Source: Armatimonadota bacterium
Lineage (GTDB): Bacteria > Armatimonadota > Fimbriimonadia > Fimbriimonadales > Fimbriimonadaceae
Direction: 5' to 3'
Assembly (NCBI GenBank): GCA_022563855.1
Contig: JADFMN010000002.1
Span: forward strand, 186,001-250,000
DNA length: 64,000 bases
A program made the position numbers and the translations under genes. The notes beneath the pieces were generated by a model that saw only the letters and a program-made list of their open reading frames with translations, was not told the origin of the DNA and did no database searches. Position 1 is the stretch's first letter, and the number at the start of each line of letters is the position of its first letter. Positions 17,714-23,248 of this stretch are shown here, piece after piece.

Positions 17714-18175
17714 TTATCTTCGTTTCCTCCCGGCAGCTCTGCTCTTTCTGCGCACTGACCGTGCAGCGATTTTCATCTTTGCACTAGACGTTCGAGACTT
17801 CCTCGCGGTTGTCTTTCTCTTGACCGTTCGCTTGCGCTTCGGGGCTGCGCGTTTCTTCGCCGCCATCTTCCGCTTCGGGGCTGCGCGTTTCTTCGCCGCC
17901 ATCTTCCGCTTCGGGGCTGCGCGCCTCACGCTCTTTCGAGCTGTGGTCTTGCGCTTCATTCGCTTCGGCGCTGCCTTCCTGGCAGTAGTCTTCTTCTTCG
18001 TCGTGGCCTTTCTGCGCACAGCTTTTTTAGCTGCGGGCTTTCTGGCCGTGGTCTTCTTTCTTGCTTTTGTTCTTTTTGCGACGGTTCGTTTCTTCGTCGC
18101 CCGTTTGGGCGCGGATTTTCTTGCCGCCGGTTTTCTTTTTGCGACCTTTTTCTTAGTCGCTCTCTTCATGGCCAT
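17714..18175 (-). CDS. Histone H1-like Lys/Arg/Ala-rich DNA-binding protein
   Basis: The product is about 153 residues, almost wholly Lys, Arg, Ala and Thr with AAKK, AAPKRK and TARK repeats. It resembles the C-terminal tail of eukaryotic histone H1 and bacterial H1-like proteins (HctB/AlpP type). It should bind and compact DNA without a folded domain. I chose ATG 18175 because GAGGTAG lies 9 nt upstream; the frame extends 11 codons further. The upstream interval holds a perfect palindrome at 18296-18311. Internal 36-bp direct repeats show recent length change. Confidence 0.85.
   Translation of the reverse strand: MAMKRATKKKVAKRKPAARKSAPKRATKKRTVAKRTKARKKTTARKPAAKKAVRRKATTKKKTTARKAAPKRMKRKTTARKSVRRAAPKRKMAAKKRAAPKRKMAAKKRAAPKRKRTVKRKTTARKSRTSSAKMKIAARSVRRKSRAAGRKRR
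17835..17923 (-). repeat. 36-bp tandem repeat inside the histone-like gene
   Basis: Two identical 36-bp units (17835-17870, 17871-17906) and a partial third copy to 17923 encode RAAPKRKMAAKK repeats. Perfect identity means recent expansion. Confidence 0.85.
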
Positions 18176-18295
18176 GTTTTGGTCTACCTCCGAGAAGCAT
18201 TGCATCATGCAATACGCTTCCGCACAGAAAAGGACGAGGTGAAGGTGTAAAAAGCGTTGAATCTAAGCAAAACAGTTGCACGCTTTTCTATTGCA

Positions 18296-18388: not shown

Positions 18389-18511
18389 CCTGCGTACGCG
18401 ATCTACGCAGTGCGCGAGACGAGAGGAATCGGCACGCAATGACGCAAGAATCGGCGCATTGCGTGATCGACGGTGTCTGGTGGCGCAATAGGTGAGCGAG
18501 CGATTCAGAAG

Positions 18512-19279
18512 ATGCTCGGGCACGAGGTTAACTGTGCGAAAGTTCCGGGGTACAACGTATCTACTGACATGCCCGATGCCGATCTGATCCAGCGATACAA
18601 TTACGATTCGTTCGTGCGCGAAAAGTTTGGGCCGTGGATGCGGTTCGCCGAGAGTCCGCGTCTCGGAACGCCCGCGACGGACCACAAGCTCTGGCGCCTT
18701 GATGAGTCCGAGACAAGTTTCAAAGAGACGTGGATGAAGCACGACTTTCTGGTCGTCGAGTTCGGGAGCTTCACGTGACCGTACTGCGGGATGGCGGCGT
18801 CATCCATGGATCAGCTGGCGGCAGAGTTCTCGGATCAGAACGTGGGCTCCGTCTTTCTGTACACGAACGAGGCGCACCCCGGCGAACATTATCCACACCT
18901 TACATCCATGCAGCAGAAGTTTCTGCATGCACGGGATCTTCGCGACAAGCAGGGGGTGACCCGACAGATTCTCGTCGATTCGCTGGACGGGGCGTGCCAC
19001 CGGGCATACGGCTCTATGCCGAACATGGCCTGGATCGTCAATGGCGCTGGAATACCCGTCTACAAGTCGGACTGGACCGATGCGCACTCTATTCGGAACG
19101 CGATTCTGTACTTTCTTGATCTCAGCGAGCGGCGCGAGTCCGGAGAGCGGGTTGCACCGTTTCGAGTCGAGCGACTGGACTACCGAATTCGCGACGCCAC
19201 CGCGTTCATGAAGGGGCTTGAACTAGCCGGGCCAAAGGCTGTGCGAGAGTTCAAAGCCGAGTTCCCGGGCGGGCATTGA
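18512..19279 (+). CDS. Deiodinase-like selenoprotein (UGA = Sec at residue 89)
   Basis: Two open stretches in one frame are separated only by TGA at 18776-18778. Read through, the context is VVEFGSFT-U-PYCG, followed by FLYTNEAHPGEHYPH. That is the pattern of the thioredoxin-fold deiodinase-like family, whose active site is a Sec in a (C/S/T)xUP motif, with EAHP as a further conserved block. The N-terminal RYNYDSFVREKF also fits this family. Here UxxC (UPYC) supplies a resolving Cys. A hairpin directly after the UGA (18789-18805) is a SECIS candidate. Read through, it gives 255 residues. Starts GTG 18473, ATG 18512 and ATG 18569 are all possible; none has a strong ribosome site. It is the first of three selenoprotein candidates here. 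The substrate is unknown; iodothyronine is not implied. Confidence 0.87.
18779..18805 (+). promoter_or_regulatory. SECIS candidate of the deiodinase-like gene
   Basis: Downstream of the UGA the mRNA can form GGATG (18789-18793), loop GCGGCGT (18794-18800) and CATCC (18801-18805). The GG-containing loop begins 16 nt after the UGA, the distance expected for a bacterial SelB-binding SECIS. It is inside the coding sequence, as in all bacterial cases. Confidence 0.65.
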
Positions 19280-19495: not shown

Positions 19496-20359
19496 TCACT
19501 TGGATTTGAGCAGATTCTTCAGCTTCGCGGCGATTGTCTCGCTAGACGGAACTCCGTCTAAATAGGCTCGTCAGCCAGGAAATCCGGGGACTGGCGGCTT
19601 CGCCATACCCATGAGATCGACGCCCGCGACCAGCACCGTCGGCGTCCCGTATCCGATACTAGGATCGTCTACCGGCAGCTGCGATACATCTACCAAAGTG
19701 TACTGATTCTCCAGGCCAAGATTCTTGAGCGCTGCCTCCAAGTTCTTGAGCATGAGCGGCGCATTGGGACAGCCCTCCGCCGTCAACAATTGGATTCTCT
19801 TCCTGTCATTTAGAATTTTGCCCAGTTCCTTGTGCAGCTTTTCGCCGTTCAGCAGTCTCTCGTCCCGGCCGTAAAGGCCGAGCTGGTGCATCCAGTAGTC
19901 GGGCATTGGCGCATTGTCCTTCCACTTTGCCTCGCGGTTGAAAAGGAAGTATATGTCCCAAGCCACCGGATGTCGGGCGGGCATCTCCAGCGTCTTGCCG
20001 AAAGCTTGAGCGATCTCGCGATCGCCGTCCCAGTAAAACATGAAGCGGTCGTCGTCCCAATCTTTCAGTCGCTCGACGGCTGCGTCTCTGTTGTCCGTGC
20101 GAAGCATCGGAAGATAGACAATGAAGAACGCGATATTCTCATCGGCATACTTCTTGGCCAAGTCATCCCGCACCACACTGGCGCCGTGGATGCAAGCCCC
20201 TCAAGTCGGTGCGATTATCGCTACCACGCGCGGCTTGCCAACGGCATCGTTGAAGTCCTTCGCAAAACTGGCCGCGTCGCGCAACTCGTCCGAACCATCC
20301 GTCTGAGCACTTTGCACGTGGACAATCATAGCCGTCGCGATCATAGTTGTTAGTATCAT
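19496..20359 (-). CDS. Two-domain thioredoxin-like selenoprotein with two Sec codons
   Basis: The open stretch 19571-20176 continues in frame through TGA codons on both sides. Upstream, ATG 20359 (GAGGA site 6 nt before) opens a signal segment and the frame RVVAIIAPT-U-GACIHGAS. This is a UxxC redox site (Sec 53, Cys 56) in a thioredoxin-like domain. The second domain has LTAEGCPNAP (Cys 197) and YGTPTVLVAGVDL, as in MerB-associated thioredoxin folds. It continues through TGA 19571-19573 as GFPG-U-RAYLDGVPSSETIAAKL, then stops at TGA 19496-19498. In that family the aligned residue is a Cys (CRxY). Both UGAs replace a redox Cys and both are followed by a SECIS-like hairpin. The product is 287 residues and probably extracytoplasmic. 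Confidence 0.85.
19543..19570 (-). promoter_or_regulatory. SECIS candidate after the second UGA of the double-Sec gene
   Basis: After UGA 19573-19571 the RNA forms TAGACGG (19560-19554), loop AGTT (19553-19550) and CCGTCTA (19549-19543). This is a perfect 7-bp stem. The loop begins 18 nt after the UGA. Confidence 0.65.
20170..20200 (-). promoter_or_regulatory. SECIS candidate after the first UGA of the double-Sec gene
   Basis: On the minus strand the RNA after UGA 20203-20201 forms GCATCCAC (20193-20186) with GTGGTGC (20176-20170), with one bulged T. The loop is GGCGCCAGT. The loop begins 16 nt after the UGA and has GG at its start. Confidence 0.6.
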
Positions 20360-20612
20360 AGATTCCTCGTGTTCGTCGGCCCGATCTTAGGACGCTGTCC
20401 GCACCGCGTGGAATGGGAACCACCCGTGTGCCGCTATTATGGCTGGGGCAACGTGCCCAACATCATCACTCGTCTTGCGGTGCCGGGCCATAACGATCCG
20501 AATAACTGCTGGCTGAGTTAGTTCCGCTTGGGGTCACAAGGTCCCAGGCCTTCTTTGCCACGCAACTTGCGTAATCAGCGTAACATCCGATGTGGAGGGA
20601 GCTGCTTTTCCA

Positions 20613-21261: not shown

Positions 21262-21855
21262 TCAGGCTTTTTCAGCCAGCATCATCTTGATCGCGGTTTC
21301 GACCTCTGTGTTTGCGAGATCGACTACGCGCACCGTGCCCTTCTTGTCGATAACGACGTAGTCCGGGAAGGAGTCACAGTTGAGCGCCTTCATCAGCTTG
21401 CCGCCGTCGAACGCGACTGGGTACTTCATGCCGTCGTTAATGACAGACTCGATGCCCTTGTCAGTATCGGGGTCGCTGTGGACGCCGATAATGACGAGCC
21501 CTTTGTCCGCGTACTTTTTGTGCAGTTCGTTAAGCTTCGGAACTGAAGCTCTGCAGGGGCCTCACCAGTAAGCCCAGAAGTCGAGAATGATGACTTTGCC
21601 CTTCATGGACTCCCACGTCGGCACCGTCGATTCCTCGCGTTTTTGCCACAACCACGAACCCCACGGCGAACTGGGCGAGTCTGATCTCGGCACGTTCATC
21701 CACTTCTCCATATCAAGCTTGGGGGGCGCTTTGCCCTCCATTGCATCTTTTGCCGCGTCTTTCTCGCCGCCGCGCTCTCTTTTCAGACCGTCGTCCGAAA
21801 GGAAGGCGGTACATGCAAAGAGCGCGACAGCTAGAGCCAATGTTTTGCTCAACAT
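21262..21855 (-). CDS. TlpA-like thioredoxin selenoprotein (WUGPC)
   Basis: The stretch ending at 21562 stops at TGA exactly where thioredoxins have the first active-site Cys. Reading through gives ILDFWAYW-U-GPCRASVPKLNE, then GLVIIGVHSDPD, FPDYVVIDKKG and a normal end AEKA at TGA 21262-21264. This is the WCGPC motif of TlpA/ResA-type thiol reductases with Sec 98 for Cys. The 197-residue protein has an N-terminal signal segment (TLALAVALFACTAF), so it is exported. A hairpin follows the UGA. ATG 21855 has no ribosome site but a TATACT box just upstream, so it is probably leaderless. A sulfatase gene diverges 31 bp away. Confidence 0.88.
21533..21561 (-). promoter_or_regulatory. SECIS candidate of the TlpA-like gene
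   Basis: After UGA 21564-21562 the RNA forms AGCTTC (21550-21545), loop AGTTCC (21544-21539) and GAAGCT (21538-21533). The loop begins 18 nt after the UGA. The AGTTCC sequence also occurs at the apex of the second SECIS candidate of the double-Sec gene. Confidence 0.65.
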
Positions 21856-21892
21856 AACAGCTTCAGTATATCGGTAATATCGAGTTATGTTG
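21850..21892. promoter_or_regulatory. Mirror-symmetric divergent start region
   Basis: CAACATAAC (21850-21858) and GTTATGTTG (21884-21892) are a perfect 9-bp inverted repeat. Both start codons lie within it. A/T-rich -10-like boxes for each direction (TATACT on minus, TAATAT on plus) fill the 25 bp between. Both transcripts would be nearly leaderless. Confidence 0.45.
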
Positions 21893-23248
21893 GCGTGTTT
21901 AGTAGCAAGCGCGATGGTCGTGCCCGCCCTCATCGAGCGACCGAACATCATCGTGCTGTTCGCAGACGACGCGGGGTATGCGGACTTTGGCTTCACCGGC
22001 CATCCGACTATCCGCACGCCGCACTTGGACCGTCTTGCTGCTGAGGGGATGGTTTTCACGCAGTTCTACAGCGGTGCGCCGGTGTGTACGCCGAGCCGTT
22101 ACGCGCTGCTGACCGGTCGCGAACCGCGTCGGTCCGGCATCGACGAAGCTGCAGTTCTGTTCCCGAAATCCCGCAAGGGAATCCACGAACGCGAGATCAC
22201 TGTCGCCGAGCTTTTGCGCGAGCAGGGGTATGCCACGGCGATCTTCGGCAAGTGGCACCTCGGCGTGCCGAACGAGAACAACGGTTACGCTACGAATCGC
22301 CTGCCGCTGTCGCACGGTTTCGACGAGTATTTCGGGCTGCCTTACAGCAACGACATGATAGGGTCGAACGTTCCGCCGATTCCACTGTTGGAAGGCCCGG
22401 TCGTTCCTGGCCATGAGCGTTACAAGGGTTATCGCGTCGTTGAATTCAAACCGGATCAGAAGACCATCTGGAAGCGGTACACGGAGCACGCCGTCGACTT
22501 CGTGCGGCGAAACAGCGACCGGCCGTTCTTCCTCTACCTGCCGTTCTCGATGCCGCACATTCCGCTGCACCCTGGCGAGGATTTTGTCGAGACGTCGCGC
22601 AGGGGGAAGTACGGTGACGTGATCGAGGAGATCGACTGGAGCGTCGGCCAGATCGTCAACGAAGTGCGGCGGCTGGGGATCAGCGACAGAACGCTCGTGA
22701 TTTTCACGAGCGACAACGGGCCGTGGCTGCCGTTCAAGCAAGACGGTGGCTCTGCGGGGATGTTTCGCGACGGCAAGGGAACGACTTGGGAGGGCGGGAT
22801 GCACGTGCCGTGCGTCGCTTGGTGGCCGGGGGTGGTGCCAGCGAACCGCAAGAATATGGTTCCGGCCTCGGTGCTGGACTTGCTGCCGACCGCTGCCGAG
22901 CTGAGCGGCGCGGCTTTGCCCAGCGATCGCGTGATCGACGGGCGGTCGATCGTCTCTCTGCTGCGCGGCTCGGAGGAGTTTCCGGATCGGCCAATCTTCT
23001 ACATGGACTCGGGCGGTAAGAAGCTGTTCGCAGTGCGCTACGGCCCTTGGAAGCTGAAGGTGAAGATGAAAAGCAACGCGACGCCTGCTCAGTTCAAGGG
23101 CAAGGAACCGCTGCTCTTCAACATCGAGATCGACCCGGGCGAGCAGTGGAACTTGGCCGACAAGCACCCCGACATCGTCCAGCAGCTGCTGAAAATGATC
23201 GAGTTTCAGGACGATTCGGTGGAAGATGAAGGTACGTTCTGGGACTAG
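21887..23248 (+). CDS. Arylsulfatase-type sulfatase
   Basis: This 453-residue protein has a short N-terminal hydrophobic signal. PNIIVLFADDAGYADFG provides the metal-binding Asp pair. The sulfatase motif VCTPSRYALLTGR has the Cys that an FGE enzyme turns into formylglycine. GKWHLG and SDNGPW complete the family pattern. It should hydrolyse a sulfate ester, probably on a polysaccharide or glycosaminoglycan. No FGE gene is in the window. It diverges from the TlpA-like selenoprotein gene. Confidence 0.92.
   Translation: MLACLVASAMVVPALIERPNIIVLFADDAGYADFGFTGHPTIRTPHLDRLAAEGMVFTQFYSGAPVCTPSRYALLTGREPRRSGIDEAAVLFPKSRKGIHEREITVAELLREQGYATAIFGKWHLGVPNENNGYATNRLPLSHGFDEYFGLPYSNDMIGSNVPPIPLLEGPVVPGHERYKGYRVVEFKPDQKTIWKRYTEHAVDFVRRNSDRPFFLYLPFSMPHIPLHPGEDFVETSRRGKYGDVIEEIDWSVGQIVNEVRRLGISDRTLVIFTSDNGPWLPFKQDGGSAGMFRDGKGTTWEGGMHVPCVAWWPGVVPANRKNMVPASVLDLLPTAAELSGAALPSDRVIDGRSIVSLLRGSEEFPDRPIFYMDSGGKKLFAVRYGPWKLKVKMKSNATPAQFKGKEPLLFNIEIDPGEQWNLADKHPDIVQQLLKMIEFQDDSVEDEGTFWD

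Follow-up and report, generated by a model that had tools for sequence, protein, structure and literature searches.

A predicted two-selenocysteine fusion of a redoxin-like and a divergent DF-type thioredoxin-like domain in an Armatimonadota genome

We describe a gene in which two in-frame UGA codons, one in each of two different domains, appear to be read as selenocysteine (Sec). It lies in a 64,000-nucleotide window, the whole stretch of DNA that was analysed, from an Armatimonadota bacterium of the family Fimbriimonadaceae. Comparison with homologues indicates that this reading is real, since relatives carry UGA at both positions, and that the gene is a combination of selenoprotein modules and not a broken gene. 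The product is rather probably a chain, itself probably exported, that holds two self-contained Sec-Cys redox modules and acts on a disulfide, peroxide or similar substrate.

The features of the gene are collected in Table 1. On re-reading, the start of the frame, both internal UGA codons and the terminal UGA fell exactly where a first-pass annotation of the same DNA had placed them. Under the standard code the gene is reduced to a longest open piece of 201 aa, from which the part with Sec53 and the last 24 residues are missing. The read-through product contains exactly two Cys and two Sec, arranged as U53/C56 in the N-terminal domain and C197/U263 in the C-terminal domain. Relatives have N-termini that are either similar to that of the window protein or lipoprotein-type, and these hydrophobic or lipoprotein-type N-termini suggest export of the window protein and most of its relatives; the paralogue on contig C19 of the same genome has no clear signal peptide.

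Table 1. Coordinates and sequence features of the two-Sec gene (positions are those of the window)
Feature	Position	Strand	Basis or remark
Two-Sec fusion gene	19496..20359	-	ATG at 20359, in-frame UGA at residues 53 and 263, terminal UGA 19496-19498; 287 aa product; two full-length homologues with both UGAs
GAGG, probable ribosome-binding site	20365..20368	-	Sequence; 5 nt before ATG 20359
Hydrophobic N-terminus, putative short signal peptide	20303..20359	-	Hydropathy
N-terminal domain, residues 31-180, redoxin-like, UxxC and PxPxxWMHQ motifs	19820..20269	-	Profile match, alignment
UGA read as Sec53, UGAC	20201..20203	-	UGA in all strong N-domain matches of the phylum except G013 (Thr); Cys in L042
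bSECIS-like hairpin GCGCC-AGTGT-GGTGC	20170..20184	-	Loop 21 nt after first UGA, G in loop
C-terminal domain, residues 186-284, divergent DF-family thioredoxin-like; Cys197 at thioredoxin active-site position	19508..19804	-	Profile match, alignment
UGA read as Sec263, PGURAY motif	19571..19573	-	UGA in 7 C-domain genes; Cys in G173, G227, Streptomyces MerB
bSECIS-like hairpin TTAGACGG-AGTT-CCGTCTAG	19542..19561	-	Loop 17 nt after second UGA

Two further genes encode both domains: G000:C19:7596-8423, a paralogue from this genome, and G025:C20, from a different genus within the family. Both are at 43-45% identity, and in each of them the two UGAs lie in one uninterrupted frame. Both UGA columns and the residues close to them are invariant in the three-way alignment. 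UGA is also found at the first site in N-domain-only relatives (G023, G017 and two in G074) and in a G076 gene, and at the second site in C-domain-only relatives (G027, G049, G038 and G011). Beyond the second UGA, an R, a Y and the motif GVPS are invariant in the phylum's C-domain relatives, Cys forms included, and an Arthrobacter C-domain protein has GVPT where the others have GVPS. At both sites the in-frame UGA aligns with Cys of homologues: the first with a gammaproteobacterial relative (L042, PTCGIC), the second with proteins of G173 and G227, a Streptomyces MerB and the Arthrobacter protein. Such Cys homologues were what the first-pass annotation had proposed to look for, and homologues that end at the second UGA or start after the first, which it had named as the finding that would speak against its reading, were not encountered. 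A single-sequence scan of the genome collection gave no match and an alignment-based scan gave one Cys relative; scans of viral contigs for relatives and of plasmids for the N-domain returned none.

Several of these relatives have features of their own. The G013 gene (L016, 1447-2016, minus strand) has Thr in place of Sec (PTTPRC) and keeps the Cys, which may reflect a change of chemistry or decay. G049:C5 carries a C-domain Sec gene and, where the contig ends, part of a second copy (L020 and L025), both with a PSUR motif. The N-domain Sec gene of G076:C313 (L014, L045) is followed by a C-domain stub that stops after ~20 residues, which points to either truncation of what was once a fusion or a faulty assembly. 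The gammaproteobacterial relative (L042, 1740-2933, plus strand) is a lipoprotein that joins the Cys form of the N-domain to a different C-terminal part.

A bacterial SECIS element is a hairpin just after the UGA with a G near the start of its loop, and hairpins of this kind follow both UGAs, so that each Sec would be positioned by a hairpin of its own. At the second site all seven Sec genes share one register, in which the loop, AGTT or GGTC, starts 17 nt past the UGA; 98% of cells are paired, as against 41-57% when the partners are slid, and two pairs are compensatory. At the first site six genes have the hairpin, with GT in its loop, at +21, and two more have it at +23; among the six +21 genes 100% of cells are paired (20-57% when slid), again with two compensatory pairs. 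When synonymous codons were randomised jointly with the peptides held constant, none of 20,000 draws matched the observed pairing (p <= 5e-5 per site), p-values that are optimistic given the common ancestry of the genes and the choice of registers after the hairpins had been seen. The second hairpin is partly dictated by the GVPS peptide, a part for which the synonymous-codon control accounts. A generic hairpin test applied gene by gene gave weak results at the Sec sites (p about 0.05-0.36), and the fixed-register joint test is relied on instead. The Cys-form gene of G173 lacks the hairpin. The genome encodes selA, selB, tRNA-Sec (anticodon TCA) and selD, which itself has an internal UGA. Recoding of UGA as Trp was considered and rejected: the window has 53 long open stretches, 14 of which terminate at UGA, and the homologues show Cys, not Trp.

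The surroundings of the gene hold further selenoprotein genes. The adjoining gene (18473-19279, plus strand; UGA 18776-18778) encodes a deiodinase-like selenoprotein with a UPYC motif that scores 29.6 bits against Pfam T4_deiodinase, over the 27-bit cut-off, and a gene at 21262-22059 (minus strand; UGA 21562-21564) encodes a ResA/TlpA-like thiol-disulfide oxidoreductase with the motif WAYWUGPC. Counting the fusion gene, a stretch of about 3.6 kb thus holds three selenoprotein genes and four Sec codons. A lysine/arginine/alanine repeat protein that resembles histone H1-like proteins and has no Pfam match is encoded at 17714-18208 (minus strand).

The N-terminal domain matches Redoxin (PF08534) with 24.8 bits (E 2e-5), under the gathering score of 26.6 bits, and the Redoxin profile is matched by one of ten N-domain members. 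It has no significant match among solved structures and no curated model in the curated libraries searched. Redoxin-family selenoproteins (PF08534; PMC13188914, Table 1) share with it the UxxC motif and the weak Redoxin similarity; it differs from them in scoring below the gathering score and in its PxPxxWMHQ motif. A thioredoxin-type CxxC/UxxC active site is found in this domain only, the C-terminal domain having a single Cys at that place. The first-pass annotation had taken the first Sec as the N-terminal residue of a UxxC motif, which the sequence confirms, and had described two Sec in two thioredoxin-type folds. The two Sec and the two different domains stand; a thioredoxin-type fold in the first of them is suggested by the sub-threshold Redoxin match.

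The C-terminal domain covers positions 1-94 of the 96 in NCBIfam NF049942 with scores of 34.2 and 37.5 bits, against a curated cut-off of 70 bits, and is a divergent relative of that family. Its Cys column and its Cys/Sec column are common to near-threshold NF049942 members (67-68 bits). NF049942 itself ('hypothetical protein DF', PMC12013277) is likewise a selenoprotein family with Cys homologues and is matched over the full profile; it differs in that the catalogue gives it one Sec and mentions no N-terminal redoxin-like domain, and in that our C-domain falls below its 70-bit cut-off. The domain also aligns with the MJ0307 thioredoxin (1fo5, E 0.019). C197 is matched there to the first Cys of CPHC, and TPT to the strand that carries the cis-Pro; visual inspection then puts GVPS at the turn that leads into the last helix, a turn that in thioredoxins borders the substrate groove, and an insertion immediately ahead of it contains Sec263. 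Since the Sec263 loop is aligned where thioredoxin binds substrate, Sec263 can probably reach Cys197. AlphaFold2 models of the full product, built with one relative in the input (pLDDT 39), and of the C-domain alone (pLDDT 60) were too poor to use, and for this reason no Sec-Cys distances are claimed; a Foldseek search with the C-domain model (pLDDT 60) returned nothing significant. A recent duplication of one domain into the other is unsupported, the profile comparison having found no significant similarity between the two.

From these observations we propose that the protein is a fusion of two redox modules that probably performs extracytoplasmic selenol/thiol redox chemistry. The N-terminal redoxin-like module would work through the Sec53-x-x-Cys56 pair, and the DF-type thioredoxin-like module through Cys197 and Sec263, the latter on the loop inserted just before the last helix. 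Each module may cycle between the Sec-H/Cys-SH form and a selenenylsulfide, taking electrons from another thiol protein and, most likely outside the cytoplasm, using them to reduce an oxidised substrate such as a disulfide or peroxide.

A role in binding or detoxifying mercury, or some other soft metal or metalloid for which Sec would be a very strong ligand, is the weaker rival to this redox reading and in our judgement unlikely, though better placed than the other alternatives. It draws on the company that DF domains keep, their best-characterised neighbours being concerned with mercury handling and not with disulfides: Streptomyces has a fusion of a DF-like domain with MerB, G227 has one with a MerC-like membrane part, and on Actinomycetota plasmids Cys forms adjoin metal regulators and transporters. 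The Streptomyces organomercurial lyase (WP_053673262.1) has the same thioredoxin-like domain with Cys at the 197 and 263 positions, and the presence of DF domain and MerB in one protein bears out the description of the second domain as MerB-associated in the first-pass annotation; the lyase differs from the window protein in having Cys in place of Sec and in its fused MerB lyase, which the fusion gene lacks. The MerB catalytic domain (PF03243) has no match in the fusion protein. Against a role in mercury handling, no MerB was found in 13 genomes, in a search run without a positive control, no MerA exceeded the cut-off in the genomes searched, and the scanned neighbours included no recognisable metal genes. 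The best MerA hit in the window was below the cut-off and reads as a dihydrolipoamide dehydrogenase. At L038 (1024-1815, minus strand) a DF-like Cys domain fused to a MerC-type membrane part adjoins a MerR-like regulator.

It is also conceivable, but less so than metal handling, that the two pairs form an electron relay within one chain, in which Sec53/Cys56 gives electrons to Cys197/Sec263 or takes them from it. Fused redox domains often exchange electrons, and both Sec are kept in all three full two-domain genes. Against this, each domain also occurs alone with its own Sec-Cys pair. No single-domain genome was found to have both halves, a weak point against a relay, since with numbers of this size chance would be expected to give such non-overlap. 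More doubtful again is the fuller version, a natural intramolecular selenium relay in which the two Sec-Cys pairs, each on a thioredoxin-like domain of the same exported protein, exchange electrons, perhaps via a Sec-Sec or Sec-Cys bond that joins the domains. As in the window protein, each module of the C19 paralogue has exactly one Cys and one Sec, and the two-domain protein of G025 has one further Cys; intact single-domain N genes have one Cys and one Sec each, as do single C genes, two of which also have a lipoprotein-type Cys near the start. Self-contained pairs are thus better supported than an inter-domain relay, because each half holds exactly one Sec and one Cys and occurs alone.

Two alternatives to full read-through remain to be weighed. 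A message in which UGA has to be read twice would yield less full-length protein, and one of the codons might be read efficiently as Sec while the other in practice ends translation, giving a short and a long form; the conserved hairpins and the conserved coding sequence downstream of both sites make this very improbable. Gene decay through two stop mutations, or errors in the assembly, would account for a frame that is broken unless recoded, but this is refuted in practice by the homologues and has next to no probability: separate genes and genomes share both UGAs, any stop codon at these sites is UGA, with no UAA or UAG, Cys counterparts exist, the hairpins are conserved and the Sec machinery is intact.

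The description of the DF family NF049942 in the deep-Sep paper (PMC12013277) was based on one Sec protein, from Desulfosediminicola flagellatus, and the paper reported no UGA-containing DF homologue elsewhere. A 2026 catalogue (PMC13188914) lists 119 prokaryotic selenoprotein families and several double selenoproteins, namely MbdU, a HUGP/GUXX-star fusion, TsoB and a methyltransferase/UXPK-star protein. These resemble the window protein in placing two Sec in one bacterial protein and differ in their domains, none being a redoxin-like UxxC and DF pair. The first-pass annotation had not known the pair as a described family, and within the literature examined this holds: the pair is absent from the catalogue (PMC13188914), and an earlier mention may exist in the 2025 selenoprotein-neighbourhood paper by Haft and Tolstoy.

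The fusion gene brings a two-Sec domain pair that is missing from the current catalogue, and its N-terminal half points to a family of redoxin-like UxxC proteins with no coverage in the curated libraries searched. Its C-terminal half and the relatives of that half show Sec in use in DF-like domains across several genera.
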